Assembly (NCBI GenBank): GCA_021737945.1
Contig: JAIPCX010000014.1
Coordinates: forward strand, 1 to 64,000
Reading direction: 5' to 3'
DNA length: 64,000 nt
DNA from: Polynucleobacter sp.
GTDB lineage: Bacteria > Pseudomonadota > Gammaproteobacteria > Burkholderiales > Burkholderiaceae_D
Of the stretch, positions 6,665 to 12,791 are shown piece by piece (position 1 is the first letter of the stretch; each line of letters opens with the position of its first letter). A model generated the notes under the pieces. It had not been told where the DNA came from and ran no database searches. It saw only the letters and a list, made by a program, of their open reading frames with translations. The position numbers and the translations under genes were made by a program.

Positions 6665-7789
6665 ATGAAGACGCGTGCCGCCGTATTACATACGCTTGAT
6701 TTACAGTCGCCCTTTGCAAACAGCAAGCCGTTAAAGATTGAAGAGATTGAGCTGGATGAACCGGGCATGGGTGAAGTGCTGGTCAAAATGACTGCCGCCG
6801 GTTTATGCCATTCCGATCTGTCCGTCATTACGGGTGTGCGTCCTCGCCCCGTGCCTATGGCGTTGGGACATGAAGCATCTGCCACGGTGATGAGAGTCGG
6901 TGATGGTGTTGTGAATTTAAAAGCCGGCGACCGTGTGGTGCTGGTATTTGTACCTAGCTGCGGTAACTGCATGCCATGCATGGAAGGGCGTCCTGCTTTG
7001 TGCGAACCCGGTGCAGAAGCGAATGGTAAGGGCACCTTGTTATCTGGCGCGCGTCGTTTGCATTTGGGTCAACAAGCGGTGAATCATCACGTTGGTGTGT
7101 CAGCTTTTGCAGAGCATGCGGTGGTGTCACAACGCTCGTGCGTAAAGGTCGCACAAGATATTGATCCGGTGGAATCTGCCCTATTTGGTTGTGCTGTTTT
7201 AACCGGTGTGGGCGCGGTAGTAAACACGGCCAAAGTACAACCCGGTCAGACCGCTGCCGTGATTGGTTTAGGTGGTGTGGGTATGTGTTCGCTGCTAGGT
7301 GCTGTTGCATCAGGTGCGGTTGAGGTGATCGCAGTTGATTTGAATGACGACAAATTAAAAGCAGCCAAAGAATTAGGCGCGACATTTACGGTCAATGCAC
7401 GTGATCCTGATGCCGCTGCAAAGGTGAGGGAATACACCAAAGGTGGCGTTGACTTCGCGTTTGAAATGGCGGGTGTGACGCCAGCAATGGAACTCGCGTA
7501 TCGCATTACAAAACGTGGTGGCACAACCGTCACCGCCAGCCTGTTTCATCCACAGCATACGTGGCCGATTCAGCAAGTGAGTTTGGTGGCTGAAGAGCGC
7601 ACGGTTAAAGGTAGCTATATCGGTTCATGCATTCCTTCGCGTGATATTCCGCGCTACATTGGTTTATATTTACGCGGCAAGCTACCGATTAATAAATTGT
7701 TGGGCGAACGACTCAAGCTCGACGATATCAATCGCGGCTTCGACAAACTCAACGCTGGCGAAAGCATGCGTGATTTGGTGGTGTTCTAA
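6665..7789 (+). CDS. Zinc-dependent alcohol dehydrogenase (MDR family)
   Basis: Medium-chain dehydrogenase/reductase, 374 residues. Catalytic zinc ligands Cys48 (GLCHSD) and His69/Glu70 (GHE) are present, as are the four structural zinc cysteines at about 99, 102, 105 and 113. A GLGGVG Rossmann motif and an acidic residue after the second strand (VDLND) indicate NAD binding. It resembles class III/aryl alcohol dehydrogenases of the AdhC type. Last gene of the operon that begins with the Liv transporter; a perfect 11-base-pair terminator hairpin follows. It likely oxidises an alcohol to the aldehyde used by the upstream dehydrogenase. Confidence 0.92.
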   Translation: MKTRAAVLHTLDLQSPFANSKPLKIEEIELDEPGMGEVLVKMTAAGLCHSDLSVITGVRPRPVPMALGHEASATVMRVGDGVVNLKAGDRVVLVFVPSCGNCMPCMEGRPALCEPGAEANGKGTLLSGARRLHLGQQAVNHHVGVSAFAEHAVVSQRSCVKVAQDIDPVESALFGCAVLTGVGAVVNTAKVQPGQTAAVIGLGGVGMCSLLGAVASGAVEVIAVDLNDDKLKAAKELGATFTVNARDPDAAAKVREYTKGGVDFAFEMAGVTPAMELAYRITKRGGTTVTASLFHPQHTWPIQQVSLVAEERTVKGSYIGSCIPSRDIPRYIGLYLRGKLPINKLLGERLKLDDINRGFDKLNAGESMRDLVVF

Positions 7790-7859
7790 CCCCCACTATC
7801 AAGCATTACGAATACGCATCACATATCTGACATCACCACGATGGCAAATAGATGGTGCA

Positions 7860-7892
7860 GGGAAGTGCTAGCAATAGCACTTCCCTTTCTTT
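7860..7892 (+). terminator. Intrinsic terminator after the alcohol dehydrogenase operon
   Basis: Perfect inverted repeat with arms GGGAAGTGCTA (7860-7870) and TAGCACTTCCC (7875-7885) closing a GCAA tetraloop of the GNRA type, followed by TTTCTTT. It ends the plus-strand operon and reaches the stop codon of the convergent HTH gene. Confidence 0.85.
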
Positions 7893-8214
7893 ATGCGTTC
7901 ATTGGCGTCCTGTTCGGTTTGCTGTGCATATCCGAAACACGATAGCGTGTCCGTCGATCTCCCATCAGATCGCGCAGATCACGAATGCTCAACTGAGTCA
8001 CTTCGTGCATTCGAATTAATAACGACGCTCCGACTGGTAAAGTACGATGCCGTATTTTGCTTATGACTGGAGCAGTGACTTCCAACGCTCGTGATAAAGC
8101 CGCATCATTTTTTAGATGCATACGCTCGCGCAAGGTATCCAGTAGTCGATTCGGATCATAGGTTTCTTGCGACGACAAGGTATGTGTATGCGTGTCGCGT
8201 TGCATGGGTTCCAT
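7891..8214 (-). CDS. Small helix-turn-helix protein
   Basis: 107-residue protein with a Cro/C1-like helix-turn-helix across about residues 28-85 (a DAALSRALEVTAPVISKIRH core followed by SLLIRMHEVTQLSIRDLRDLMG). It resembles a small regulator I recall from Oxalobacteraceae, but its target is not known. I place the start at 8214 because GAGGA lies six bases upstream; the ATG at 8226 has no ribosome site. It is the last gene of a minus-strand set with the S8 protease (42 bases apart) and the glutamine-rich protein, so it may regulate them. Alternatively it is an independent regulator. Confidence 0.8.
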   Translation of the reverse strand: MEPMQRDTHTHTLSSQETYDPNRLLDTLRERMHLKNDAALSRALEVTAPVISKIRHRTLPVGASLLIRMHEVTQLSIRDLRDLMGDRRTRYRVSDMHSKPNRTPMNA

Positions 8215-8256
8215 GAAAATCCTCATATCAAAGTAATGCGAACACGAGATAAAAAA

Positions 8257-10182
8257 TCACCATATGCCAAAGGTATATCCTGCTGGCATAGCCATGGGAC
8301 TGGAAACTAAGGGTCTATAGCTGCCGTAGGGATCAAATGAACCCAGCCCCGGATTCATTGTTTGCGGCATAAGACGCGGTGGCTCACGATACACATTGGC
8401 AAGCGACTGCATCATGGGCGAGCTCATCCCTGCACTCATACCTGCGCTCATCATCTGGGGCGAATACAAGGGAGCAAGTCCAACCGCACGCATGACGTCC
8501 GGCATACCAAATCCGATTCGTCGCTGATCACCGGGGACTACTGGCCGACACGACATTTTGATAACTTGAAAAAGTCGTTCAACACGCTCAGCACTGCGCT
8601 GACCCACAGATCCCTGAAATTCAGGATGATGTGCCAATACCAAAGCCGCTAACCCCACCACATGCGACGCTGCCATAGAGGTGCCATCCCACGCAGCAAA
8701 ACTATTTTCTGGCACCGATGAGGTGATAGCGACACCGGGAGCACACACAGCCACTTCAGGACCGAAGCAGCTAAAGCGTGCCACAAAAAAACCATTCGCA
8801 TCGACATTCGGTGTCACGGTCTGCGTGTGATAACTATCGGGTGGAAACTCATTCAATCTTCCAATCGCTGCGACAGCCATCACGTTAGCTGAAGAGGCAG
8901 GATAATTAACTGGGCCCGAAGAATTTCCCGCAGCGACAATACACGCAACACCCGCTTGCTTGGCGCGCATGATTTGCTGTTCAAGCGCTTCAGAGGGTTG
9001 CGCGCCTCCTAAGCTGAGGTTAACTACGTCAATTTGTTTTTCAATGCAGTATTCAAGAGCTTCAATTAATTGACTAATCTGGCCTGCCGGGAATAGCTTG
9101 ATCGCATGGACCTCAGCTTCAGGAGCAAAGCCACGTATCCCCGATGTTGAATCCTGGCCCGCGATCACTCCTGCACAATGCGATCCATGGGCGATGGTGT
9201 CAACAGTCCAATCCGTGGTGTCTTGTGTTTTATTGATGACGTCATAGCCGCGCGTTATTTTTATCAAGTCTTGATGTGTGTTCGCGATTCCGGAATCAAT
9301 CAGCGCAATGCGTATGCCTTGCCCTCGATAATGTGAGGGCAGCTGATCCAAACGCATCGCTCGTTGTCCCCACGTCAGTTGCTGTTGCTGTGGAAAATTC
9401 GTCAATGATGGCCAATCGCAGAGGGCGCGCAATCCTATGACGTTCATTTCACTACTACTCACATCCGGTTGCTCTTGGCAGAAACTCCAATAGTCCGAGC
9501 GCGGTTTAACGTACAGACGACGCAAACTTTGCGCACTTTCACCGATCAAGCTGAGCTTAACGCGACCCTTGGCATCAGTGATGCCGCTGGCAGGAATCAA
9601 ACCACCCATAAGACATACCTCGGCATCTTTAATCGGGCTGCCATTTCCCTGCACCAGAAATTCAGCGGTGAACGCAGGGCCAGTCGTGGGTAGATTGCAG
9701 TTAACTAACGAGGCCTGCGCATAATTCATGTCGAGTAGTTGCAATGGTTGATCGCGCTCGATAATCAATTGACCCTGTGCTTGCAGTGAAAGCGAACGCG
9801 CTTTGTCATCCGTCATACGCGCTACCAGCACGGCAGTGCAGTCAGGCATGCCCGTGGCGAGAGTGCCAACGGCATGCTTAGGACCAACACGATCGATGAT
9901 TTCTATATCGGGACTATCGCGTAGTGCTTGTTCGATAGCGGAAAATTGCAGCGGCGACAAATCCATCATCTGCATTTGATGATGACGTCGTGGCGCAATC
10001 AGAAACCGACCTTTGCGTTGTTTCATCTCGCGTGGCTTACTCGTTTGAGTGCCGTTTGATCCGATATTTGATGCGGTATTAAATGCAGCATTGCTTAAGC
10101 TGCTCGGCGCGTTGCTGGTATCAGATGAAGTAGCCGCACCGCTTTGGAATTCATTAGCAGTCGACTCTGGTTTAGTTACCAT
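8257..10182 (-). CDS. S8 family serine peptidase (subtilisin-like)
   Basis: Subtilase of 641 residues with an intact catalytic set: Asp296 (ALIDSG), His332 (HGSH), oxyanion Asn420 (AAGN) and Ser502 (GTSMAAS). Before the protease domain lie a Ser/Asn/Thr-rich disordered N-terminus (1-50), a stretch at about 58-150 that may act as a propeptide, and a carboxypeptidase-regulatory-like beta domain at about 175-230 (GSPIKDAEV, TDAKGRVKL). The C-terminus (about 575-641) is Met/Pro/Tyr-rich with SAGM repeats. No signal peptide or membrane segment is visible, which is unusual for the family and suggests a cytoplasmic role or non-Sec export. The start has an AAGGGGA site. It follows the glutamine-rich gene by 65 bases. 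Confidence 0.9.
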   Translation of the reverse strand: MVTKPESTANEFQSGAATSSDTSNAPSSLSNAAFNTASNIGSNGTQTSKPREMKQRKGRFLIAPRRHHQMQMMDLSPLQFSAIEQALRDSPDIEIIDRVGPKHAVGTLATGMPDCTAVLVARMTDDKARSLSLQAQGQLIIERDQPLQLLDMNYAQASLVNCNLPTTGPAFTAEFLVQGNGSPIKDAEVCLMGGLIPASGITDAKGRVKLSLIGESAQSLRRLYVKPRSDYWSFCQEQPDVSSSEMNVIGLRALCDWPSLTNFPQQQQLTWGQRAMRLDQLPSHYRGQGIRIALIDSGIANTHQDLIKITRGYDVINKTQDTTDWTVDTIAHGSHCAGVIAGQDSTSGIRGFAPEAEVHAIKLFPAGQISQLIEALEYCIEKQIDVVNLSLGGAQPSEALEQQIMRAKQAGVACIVAAGNSSGPVNYPASSANVMAVAAIGRLNEFPPDSYHTQTVTPNVDANGFFVARFSCFGPEVAVCAPGVAITSSVPENSFAAWDGTSMAASHVVGLAALVLAHHPEFQGSVGQRSAERVERLFQVIKMSCRPVVPGDQRRIGFGMPDVMRAVGLAPLYSPQMMSAGMSAGMSSPMMQSLANVYREPPRLMPQTMNPGLGSFDPYGSYRPLVSSPMAMPAGYTFGIW

Positions 10183-10204
10183 GGTTTTCCCCTTATCAAT
10201 TGGT

Positions 10205-10225
10205 CCTGCCGCACGTGGCGGCAGG
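10205..10225 (-). promoter_or_regulatory. Hairpin between the Gln-rich gene and the S8 protease gene
   Basis: Perfect 8-base-pair inverted repeat CCTGCCGC / GCGGCAGG with a five-base loop, lying 22 bases upstream of the protease start in the transcript. There is no T-run after it on the minus strand, so it is more likely an mRNA-stabilising or attenuating element than a full terminator. Confidence 0.45.
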
Positions 10226-10247
10226 GAGCTCTGGTTTATGCTGCCAA

Positions 10248-10850
10248 TCAGTGCAGGGTCTGTTGCGATCCAGAGTACCCTTGTTGACTACCACTTTGGT
10301 AGGCTTGATAAGGCTGCAGTTGCTGTTGTTGAAGTTGTGCGATTTGTTGCGATAACTGGTGTGACAGTTGGTGCGCCAACTGGTGCAATTGTTGAAGCTG
10401 CTGAAGTTGTTGCAGTTGCTGGATTTGTTGAAGCTGTTGCAGTTGTTGATTTTGACCGTAGCCTTGTTGATTCGTGCCGCCTACTAGATTGCTTCCCATA
10501 CCTGATTGACCAAACAAAGCACCACCTCCCATTTGCTGATTACCTTGGCCGGTATTACCCCAAAAATTTTGCGGCGACAGTTGTTGCTGATGCTGCTGTT
10601 GGTTCAGTTGCTGCAATTGTTGTTGCAACTGCTGTTGCGCATAGGCTTGTGCAAAAGGGTCTTGTTGAAACTGAAGATTCGCTCCACAAAGGCCTCCGGC
10701 ATTTTGCCCACTCTGATTTGCCCATGCTGAATTGCCTAATCCGCTGGCGAATCCGCGTCCGCCCAAGGAAGCTCCCAGCAATCCCCATAACAAACCCTGC
10801 GGTGCCAATTGTTGGCCGCCGTAGCCACCCCATTGTTGAATTCCATTCAT
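10248..10850 (-). CDS. Glutamine-rich low-complexity protein
   Basis: Unrecognised protein of 200 residues, about 32 percent glutamine (64 by hand count), with much Gly, Leu and Asn. The N-terminus has WGGYGGQQ, then a glycine-zipper-like hydrophobic stretch (GLLWGLLGASLGG) at about 19-31. Two Gln/Leu blocks follow, the second with LQQ repeated about six times, giving either a coiled coil or a prion-like domain. One cysteine, no charged core and no classical signal peptide. The start at 10850 is set by AGGAGC seven bases upstream; the frame is open further to 10907 without a site. It leads a module with a subtilase and an HTH gene and could be that protease's substrate or partner. No function is assigned. 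Confidence 0.75.
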   Translation of the reverse strand: MNGIQQWGGYGGQQLAPQGLLWGLLGASLGGRGFASGLGNSAWANQSGQNAGGLCGANLQFQQDPFAQAYAQQQLQQQLQQLNQQQHQQQLSPQNFWGNTGQGNQQMGGGALFGQSGMGSNLVGGTNQQGYGQNQQLQQLQQIQQLQQLQQLQQLHQLAHQLSHQLSQQIAQLQQQQLQPYQAYQSGSQQGYSGSQQTLH

Positions 10851-11055
10851 AGTCGCTCCTAAAAATTGAGAAAAATGTGCCTCGTTCGTGAATGAACGCT
10901 TGCTCATGGCAACGCTTTTATTTGCGTCACTTACAGACTATGGTTGTCGCAGCGGTTAGTAATTGCAAATTGATCGGACAGTAGCTTGCGTAGTCTCAAG
11001 AAGAGGCTGCGTGCTTGAATTCAGATCAAGTTTAGAAACTAAATTTTTTGGTTAG

Positions 11056-11095
11056 GTGAAAAAAAACCGTGCAGGCTTTTCAGCGCTGCACGGTT
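11056..11095 (-). terminator. Intrinsic terminator of the lactate permease gene
   Basis: Inverted repeat AACCGTGCAG (11065-11074) / CTGCACGGTT (11086-11095) with an eleven-base loop. On the minus strand it is followed directly by a run of eight Ts. It lies about 37 bases after the permease stop codon. Confidence 0.9.
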
Positions 11096-11132
11096 ACATG
11101 TGACTAAAACGAATTTATTTTTTGCAGGTTGT

Positions 11133-12791
11133 TTATTTCACCAACAGTGTGAACGGATGAACATACGCTTGCAATGTAACGAGTATGCCCACCAGTGCTG
11201 CTAATGCAATGGAATGGAAAAACACATAACGTAAAATCTCACCTTCGTGACCGTACCATTTGGTCGCCGTCGATGCCACCACAATCGATTGGGCATCGAT
11301 CATCTTGCCCATCACACCACCGGAAGAATTAGCTGCAGCCATCAGAACCGGGCTCAAACCAAGTTGTTCCGCTGAAGTACGCTGTAATCCACCAAACAAC
11401 ACATTCGATGCAGTATCAGAGCCAGTTAACGCAACGCCTAACCAGCCGAGCAAGGTACCAAAGAACGGATACAAAACACCCGTGTTGGCGAAAGCTAAGC
11501 CCAGCGCTGAATCAACGCCGGAGTAACGTGTCGCATAGCCTAAAGCCAGCATGGCGGCAATCGTTAGCAGCGAGTAACGAAGCAACTTAACCGTATCCCA
11601 ATAAATAGCGAGCATCTCGCGAACTTTGTAGCCCATCACGAAGGCTGAGGCTACTGCAGAGATGAAAATGCCCGTTCCAGTCGCAGATAACCAATTAAAT
11701 TTAAAAATTGCTTCTTCGATTTTTGGTACAGCAGCCACAGGTGGCATCTTTTGCACGAGCATATGTAGATTAGGCCATTCGATTTTGATAATCGAAATTC
11801 CATCGAGTACTTTCTTCCACTCGGGGATGCCCCACATCAAAACCACGACCGACAAAATCAACCATGGCACCCAAGCATTGATGACTTCCGAGCGAGTGTA
11901 GCTATGTCCCACGTGAGCGGTTGAGTCGATATGCTCGCCATCTTCAAGTTTTCCGGACGGTGAAGTCCAGATTTCTTTTGGTTTCCATACTTTGAGAAAG
12001 AGTGTCAGGCAAGCCATCGATGAAACGGCTGCGCCTACATCGACTAACCAAGGGCCGTGAAAGTTGGAGATGTAGTACTGAGGAATGGCGAATGCGGCTC
12101 CTGCTACTAGCACCGCTGGCCAAATCGCCAGCATGCCGCGAAAACCGCAGAAGGCCCAGATTAACCAAAACGGAACGATCAAAGAAAACAGTGGTAACTG
12201 ACGACCGACCATGCCAGACAACTCAAGCATATCGAGTCCAGTAACCGCCGCTAATGCAATGATAGGGGTACCTAAAGCGCCGTAGGCTACCGGTGCTGTG
12301 TTGGCTATCAGTGATAAACCGGAGGCCGCGAGTGGTGCGAAACCTAAACCAATTAACATCGCGCCCGTAACGGCGACGGGTGTACCAAAACCACCAGCAC
12401 CTTCAAAAAATGCGCCGAATGAAAACGCAATCAATAACAACTGCAAGCGTCTATCGCCGCTAATTGCAGCAATGCTTTCACGCAGGATGGTGAATTGACC
12501 CTTGCGCTCGGTGAGTTGGTACAGAAAGATCACATTCAAAATAATCCAGCCGATGGGAAACAAACCATAAGCCGCGCCATACAAGGCCGAGGCAACGGCT
12601 GCATTCGCTGGCATAGTAAATCCCCAGATGGCGACTACCAGCGCAGCAATCAAACCCATTAGGGCTGCAATGTGGGCCTTGATGTGAAAGAAGGCCAAAG
12701 CGGCTAACATCACGACAACAGGAATCGCTGCCGCAAAGGTTGAAAGCCAAACGTTATTGAATGGGTCGTAGATTTGTGACCACATAAGCAT
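11133..12791 (-). CDS. lldP: L-lactate permease family transporter
   Basis: Inner-membrane carboxylate permease of the LctP/LldP family, 552 residues against 551 for the Escherichia coli protein, with about twelve or more hydrophobic segments. Family motifs include the FGAFFEGAGGFGTPVA stretch, SDTASNVLFG and ANSSGGVMGKMI. It imports lactate and probably glycolate with protons. I use the ATG at 12791, six codons before an internal MWSQIYDPF, because AGGAG lies just upstream; an in-frame ATG further up lacks a site. Single-gene transcript by its position, ending at the terminator at 11056-11095. No lactate dehydrogenase gene lies nearby. Confidence 0.93.
   Translation of the reverse strand: MLMWSQIYDPFNNVWLSTFAAAIPVVVMLAALAFFHIKAHIAALMGLIAALVVAIWGFTMPANAAVASALYGAAYGLFPIGWIILNVIFLYQLTERKGQFTILRESIAAISGDRRLQLLLIAFSFGAFFEGAGGFGTPVAVTGAMLIGLGFAPLAASGLSLIANTAPVAYGALGTPIIALAAVTGLDMLELSGMVGRQLPLFSLIVPFWLIWAFCGFRGMLAIWPAVLVAGAAFAIPQYYISNFHGPWLVDVGAAVSSMACLTLFLKVWKPKEIWTSPSGKLEDGEHIDSTAHVGHSYTRSEVINAWVPWLILSVVVLMWGIPEWKKVLDGISIIKIEWPNLHMLVQKMPPVAAVPKIEEAIFKFNWLSATGTGIFISAVASAFVMGYKVREMLAIYWDTVKLLRYSLLTIAAMLALGYATRYSGVDSALGLAFANTGVLYPFFGTLLGWLGVALTGSDTASNVLFGGLQRTSAEQLGLSPVLMAAANSSGGVMGKMIDAQSIVVASTATKWYGHEGEILRYVFFHSIALAALVGILVTLQAYVHPFTLLVK

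Follow-up and report, generated by a model that had tools for sequence, protein, structure and literature searches.

A glutamine-rich protein and a signal-less subtilase are encoded as a conserved gene pair in Polynucleobacter and its relatives

We analysed a stretch of 64,000 nucleotides from Polynucleobacter sp. (positions 1 to 64,000 of contig JAIPCX010000014.1, assembly GCA_021737945.1), hereafter the window, in which three neighbouring minus-strand genes encode a Gln-rich protein (gene A), a subtilase (gene C) and a small helix-turn-helix (HTH)-like protein. We found that A and C form a pair that recurs in many genomic neighbourhoods, and that most relatives carry a further small gene, B, between them. 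The pair is real and conserved, and as an operon it is apparently undescribed: no description of the A-B-C gene set was found in the literature searched, from which subscription papers and preprints were mostly absent. The original prediction, made from the window alone, likewise knew of no described system composed of A, C and the HTH gene. We propose, with a probability of about 0.4, that A and C, together with B in most relatives, act as one unit in which A self-assembles, C is a dedicated cytosolic subtilase acting on A, and B restrains C or helps it to fold.

The positions and composition of the open reading frames (ORFs) bear out the predicted three minus-strand genes at 7891-10850 and the 32% Gln content of A. 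Gene A (10248..10850, minus strand) encodes a protein of 200 amino acids with 2 charged residues and the end ..QQTLH; its Met start is at 10850 and its frame stays open up to 10907. After a gap of 65 bases, as predicted, it is followed by gene C (8257..10182, minus strand; 641 amino acids) and then by the HTH-like gene (7891..8226, minus strand; 111 amino acids). Counted from the ATG at 8226, the latter gap is 30 bases long; the 42 bases given originally result if the inner ATG at 8214 is the start. Around the unit, GC stays flat at 0.46 to 0.51. The relatives of these genes revealed two things that the window alone cannot: a third gene, B, is usually present, and A is by nature a repeat protein.

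Conservation of the A-C pair

In 145 genomes of the window's family, C gave a match in 31 at E 1e-20, partial ones included, and a near full-length C (about 500 residues or more, 41 to 100% identity) was present in 26. Gene A was found in 20 of the 145, and 18 of these hold a near full-length C just downstream on the same contig; in the other two, the match to A is at a contig end (G090) or weak (G112, E 9e-4). The co-occurrence expected for all three genes was thus observed for A with C and not for the HTH family, which is present in 131 of the 145 genomes.

A scan of species genomes yielded 25 loci, consisting of 23 C relatives (L051-L073, two of them in metagenome-assembled genomes (MAGs) of Acidobacteria) and two weak Firmicutes matches that were left out; some of the L051-L073 loci are on the same contigs as in the search of the 145 genomes. 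The window, these 23 and 20 further regions make 44 loci, of which 42 were kept after dropping L095, identical to the L060 locus, and L068, the other half of the L065 gene. In 39 of the 42, C is preceded in the same orientation by an ORF rich in Gln and Gly. In the remaining three, an ORF with the PQG motif described below is frame-broken (L073) or cut by the contig end (L094), or the contig runs out (L079).

Linking the loci that share at least two flanking genes resulted in groups of 18, 13 and 4 and in seven singles; as L055, on a contig of 3437 bases, was not counted, there are at least nine neighbourhood groups, and no further gene is common to all of them. A chance or historical adjacency of unrelated genes could be read from the HTH gene, which neighbours C in one clade only. 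For A and C this explanation is extremely improbable and already contradicted, because their order recurs across the nine or more neighbourhood groups (through the cut PQG ORF in the case of L094) and in the two Acidobacteria MAGs. Furthermore, the ratios of nonsynonymous to synonymous substitution rates (dN/dS) between the window and its nearest relatives are low for all three genes, with values of 0.03 to 0.07 for C, 0.06 to 0.07 for the HTH gene, and for A 0.12 against L065 and 0.06 against L051 over the C-terminal part. The pairing of A and C in other genera, taken with these ratios, indicates more than chance. The predicted three-gene module therefore stands as a real and conserved A-C pair, without the HTH gene.

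In the tree of C, both Acidobacteria copies nest among Oxalobacteraceae, and a transfer of the whole unit is likely, with the proviso that both copies come from MAGs and may be misbinned. Beyond the window's family, the N-terminal part of C is rare. It was found in 2 of 299 genomes of the phylum, both of the window's family, and in 4 of 200 genomes of the order, three of the window's family and G697. It was also found in 3 of 247 Acidobacteriota genomes, namely the own genome of L066 and two with partial matches to the beta-sandwich domain. G697, from another family of the order, encodes a distant subtilase (L116, 957-2498) with a match to the sandwich domain and without a Gln-rich neighbour.

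An origin from phages or plasmids was considered for C and rejected. Fifty-eight phage records match, none with 80% of C, and the similarity to the phage protease family phrog_3677, although strong (196 bits), is confined to the catalytic part (residues 264-567, covering 284 of 1125 profile positions). Among 670 matching plasmid records, 2 hold at least 80% of C, both of Streptomyces. Viral contigs contained no relative by two peptide patterns.

Gene A and the stem-loop behind it

In a pattern search, two or more complete PQG units were recognized in 27 of the 39 loci where A was read. The unit of 45-48 residues starts with PQG, continues with glycine zippers and then LPFxxD, and is separated from the next by a Gln-rich linker; GxxxGxxxG motifs number 12 to 24 per protein in 24 of 34 A. 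We compared 30 first and 68 inner units by their mean alignment score per length. First units from different loci scored 0.71, but only 0.51 when set against the inner units of their own protein; for inner units the score was 0.85 inside one locus and 0.72 across loci (in L055, where the contig is cut, the first visible unit is an inner one). The first unit forms its own conserved type. Furthermore, His is the final residue of A in 34 of the 39 loci; of the five exceptions, three have a broken frame or contain Ns.

In the window's A, PQG occurs once and the pattern search recognized no complete unit; the repeat model A1 gave no match in the window's genome at E 0.001. A remnant of the first PQG glycine-zipper unit, starting with LAPQGLLWGLLG, was placed by eye against the repeat alignment A1 at 10668..10808 (minus strand). 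L065 likewise keeps no complete unit by pattern. Judged from these alignments, the Gln-rich A of the window is a worn-down version of the PQG repeat protein, and its low dN/dS shows that the worn-down form remains under selection.

No model of the family libraries searched (Pfam, NCBIfam and others) was reached by A or B at its curated cut-off. The best matches of A were to low-complexity or glycine-zipper models (E 0.002 to 0.01) and to a virion structural protein (E 0.004), and four A proteins gave no gasdermin match in Pfam. Among the 299 phylum genomes, the A1 model had four matches: one in G018, of the window's family, and three weak ones in other families (G405, G235 and G414, loci L097-L099; E 8e-5 to 1e-3). 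A divergent A is encoded in L093 (5172-6536); it has other PQG repeats (VAPQGFDFGSI...) and a ..VTVH end, and the C that it adjoins is about 40% identical.

Of 36 gaps behind A, 17 contain a perfect stem of at least 8 bp, compared with 0.4 expected from shuffles and with 2 of 45 control gaps located between mechanically called co-directional ORFs. L064, L073, L076, L079, L084 and L094 did not enter this test on account of frame breaks, Ns or contig ends. The sequence of the stem-loop differs from locus to locus, and the folding energy is below z -2 in 22 of the 36 gaps. In the window, the stem-loop lies between A and C at 10205..10225 (minus strand), and its counterparts in the relatives lie between A and B. 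The simplest reading is a leaky terminator or a message-protecting hairpin, which would give more A than B and C. A simple scan of 7700-11200 detected no sigma-70 consensus promoter, compared with a mean of 3.8 in shuffles; the operon may therefore rely on a promoter of another type.

Gene C and its relation to gene B

Membership of C in the S8 family is clear from the match to PF00082 (140.9 bits against a cut-off of 21.8; E 6.6e-41). The complete catalytic triad foreseen for the protease is present as Asp296, His332 and Ser502, together with Asn420, and all four residues are found in 39 of 39 aligned C (L065, L068, L073, L087 and L095 are outside the alignment). The N-terminus shows no hydrophobic stretch by eye, in agreement with the predicted lack of a signal peptide, and C is probably cytosolic. 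A maturase system could take such a form, with a subtilase that lacks a signal peptide next to a repetitive partner.

Behind a variable low-complexity N-terminus, C comprises a propeptide-like domain related to B (residues ~57-145; 9748..10014), a beta-sandwich, possibly transthyretin-like or CnaB-like (residues ~166-255; 9418..9687), the catalytic domain (residues ~287-570; 8473..9324) and a low-complexity tail (residues 571-641 and the stop; 8257..8472), all on the minus strand. The tail varies freely, yet Trp, the last residue in the window, closes 33 of the 39 aligned C. The structure model of the whole protein (mean predicted local distance difference test (pLDDT) 42.7) was not used for fold searches. 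For the propeptide-like domain (mean pLDDT 68), the model gives a beta-alpha-beta-beta-alpha-beta order (E9-15 H31-39 E45-50 E69-74 H76-85 E90-94, with a short helix at 19-23), and the fold-search lists were filled by the adjoining sandwich domain. Transthyretin-like domains fit the sandwich best, namely 9hfj (Z 9.6, root-mean-square deviation (rmsd) 3.1 over 79) and 5aq0_B (Z 9.0, rmsd 2.2 over 78); structures of pilins and other sandwiches come within about 1 to 1.5 Z of them. Of 19 members compared with Pfam, 13 match Big_1 in the sandwich (best E 4e-5) and 10 match CarboxypepD_reg (best E 8e-4).

Five cysteines of C are near-invariant (at least 38 of 39) despite the lack of a visible signal peptide: Cys336, Cys379 and Cys472 occur in 39 of the 39 aligned proteins, and Cys414 and Cys480 in 38. 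Position 361 is Cys in 36 and Ile in the window.

Known subtilase groups matched C below their cut-offs in NCBIfam. The best-scoring model was the mycosin MycP of type VII secretion (TIGR03921, 127.4 bits against 278.75), from which C differs in that no signal peptide is seen. The anti-phage peptidase IetS (NF042956, 30 bits against 900) shares the S8 catalytic domain and gave a weak local match only, and a defence library returned this match and a generic subtilase model. The scores were also far under the cut-offs for the PatA/PatG maturase (TIGR03895, 34.9 bits against 421.05) and the QhpE maturase (NF049966, 79.1 bits, or 74.5 for L059, against 165).

These two maturases bear on the idea that A is a polyprotein or a precursor resembling those of ribosomally synthesized and post-translationally modified peptides, whose linkers would be cut by C to free several glycine-zipper peptides. 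In the cyanobactin proteases PatA/PatG, an S8 domain acts on a substrate with repeats that the same cluster encodes, and in lantibiotic operons a stem-loop lies behind the first gene. The tandem units of A are homogenised within loci and a stem-loop follows the first gene here too, as this idea would have it. However, the low scores of both maturase models, the absence of any further gene common to the neighbourhood groups and the distinct type of the first unit all speak against it, as does the low dN/dS of A in the window and L065 where the pattern recognizes no complete unit. We regard it as improbable. According to PMC7876137, QhpE is a cytoplasmic subtilisin-like protease that matures quinohemoprotein amine dehydrogenase and has its substrate in the same operon; besides the score of C, the qhp partner genes were not recognized by eye in 17 loci.

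Gene B, which is absent from the window, encodes about 87 residues between A and C in 36 of the 42 loci, including L059, L066 and L071, where it is fused to the C frame. The B profile also matches the domain near the start of C, and comparison of B with C residues 50-285 by hhalign gave a probability of 98.2 (E 4e-14). This homology indicates that B is a detached relative of the C domain. B is gone from the gap behind A in the window and in L051 and L065, where the stem-loop and a short piece ahead of C remain; apart from the domain of C itself, the B search in the window's genome returned a single match, at E 0.39. L093 has a divergent B candidate of about 80 residues, read by eye, in the right position. 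A coupling of B loss to repeat loss was rejected: it is true for the window's clade and L067, while L094 has PQG segments and no B was found there. A possible parallel to B is SUB1-ProM of Plasmodium, described (PMC6993865) as a stand-alone propeptide-like protein encoded beside subtilase genes that inhibits SUB1. SUB1-ProM differs in being eukaryotic and acting in the parasitophorous vacuole, whereas B is unmatched by Pfam propeptide models.

Mode of action, rival explanations and neighbouring genes

In the mechanism that we propose, A, which is repetitive and poor in charges, would self-assemble through its glycine-zipper repeats and Gln-rich linkers. It would be made in larger amount than B and C because the stem-loop behind it weakens read-through or protects its message. 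C would bind A and, where the catalytic residues remain, cut or trim it, setting the size or state of the assembly. The propeptide-like domain of C may keep the protease in check, and so may B in most genomes; as a detached copy of this domain, B would act in trans, restraining C or aiding its folding. In the window's closest relatives, B would have been lost and the A repeats worn down, A and C still being selected for. If A is the client of C, the genes offer a compact two- or three-gene model of protease control over zipper-type or Gln-rich assemblies in bacteria, and the natural versions lacking B, the repeats or catalysis make the role of each part directly testable.

Several observations weigh against this proposal. 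C is present in 4 of the 5 genomes of the window's genus, G122 having no match, and dS of A against L052 was not computable, so that the estimate of selection on A comes from its nearest relatives. The repeats of 33 of the 34 A are less hydrophobic than usual membrane spans (maximum 19-residue hydropathy below 1.4; 1.84 in L091). A T run within 10 bases stands behind only 7 of the 17 perfect stems, and 19 of the 36 gaps have no perfect 8-bp stem; the perfect 8-bp stem of the window has no T run behind it and its gap folds at z -1.5 only. B was not found in 6 of the 42 loci (the window, L051, L065, L067, L093 and L094). Moreover, 16 B and 19 N-terminal parts of C matched no Pfam propeptide family (presumably I9 being the one concerned) at E up to 10, in a search where the HMMER filters drop most weak matches. 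Finally, three copies of C on the two Streptomyces plasmids all have Thr or Ala in place of the catalytic Ser and Asp in place of the oxyanion Asn.

The Streptomyces copies (L106, 6034-7620; L107, from about 6001; L111, on the reverse strand) are 35-36% identical to C across the B-like part, the sandwich and the S8 domain. Upstream of each lies a gene for a Gln-rich protein of 183 to 195 residues and 29 to 38% Gln; all three of these start with MSVYTPQQ, and no glycine-zipper units were seen in them by eye. From their residues, the copies look like pseudoproteases that have retained the partner. Since the partner is kept without the Ser and Asn, cleavage would not be needed everywhere. The wider claim, that an undescribed system in more than one phylum pairs a self-assembling repeat protein with its own cytosolic subtilase and a detached propeptide, and that a dead Streptomyces branch keeps this partnership, would amount to protein assemblies under protease control inside bacteria; it is in our view unlikely.

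This dead branch suggests that binding is no less important than cutting, and hence lends weight to a scaffold without cleavage, in which a gel- or condensate-forming A would store, place or stabilise C (and B). The precedent is GerG of Clostridioides difficile, according to the consulted part of the source (PMC5241399) an Asn-rich, gel-forming repeat protein that governs the levels of the Csp subtilases in spores and whose repeats vary in number and are dispensable for function. As in the A-C pair, a low-complexity repeat protein there goes with subtilisin-like proteases and pseudoproteases; this is a spore system with Asn-rich repeats, for which that part of the source notes neither glycine zippers nor a B-like gene. 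The continued selection in the window's clade while the A repeats are worn down would also fit a scaffold. However, the catalytic residues in 39 of 39 other copies indicate that cleavage of something has been retained, and GerG and A have low complexity alone in common. A scaffold without cleavage is a rather doubtful alternative to the cutting of A by C.

Glycine zippers may also point to membrane attack or suicide, in which zipper segments, freed from A by C, would insert into membranes much as gasdermins do. Bacterial gasdermins are encoded beside proteases, and both the abundance of GxxxGxxxG motifs in A and a propeptide-like B on a separate gene would suit such a system. On the other hand, the low hydropathy of the repeats, the outcome of the defence library and the lack of a relative in viral contigs by the two peptide patterns argue against it, and neighbourhoods common to up to 18 loci are atypical of defence islands. 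Membrane attack is accordingly a poor candidate compared with the control of an A assembly by C.

The HTH gene was ruled out as a member of the module, being a clade-specific neighbour outside the conserved unit. It adjoins C in 10 of 10 loci of the window's clade (L065 being counted through its other contig, L068) and in 0 of 32 elsewhere, two of the 32 having less than 1 kb downstream, and its family occupies four places in the window's own genome. The predicted small gene exists, while its HTH identity is weakly supported, by PHROGs matches to a transcriptional regulator (E 1.6e-4) and to an HTH DNA-binding protein (E 1.7e-4), and nothing was above cut-off in Pfam and NCBIfam.

In L057 (2829-11371), the unit sits between two genes that we take to be citrate synthase-like and 2-oxoglutarate dehydrogenase E1-like. 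In the window, a terminator-like hairpin of 12 pairs, with a T-rich tail on the plus strand, lies beside the HTH gene at 7859-7886; across it is a plus-strand gene, presumably alcohol-dehydrogenase-like.

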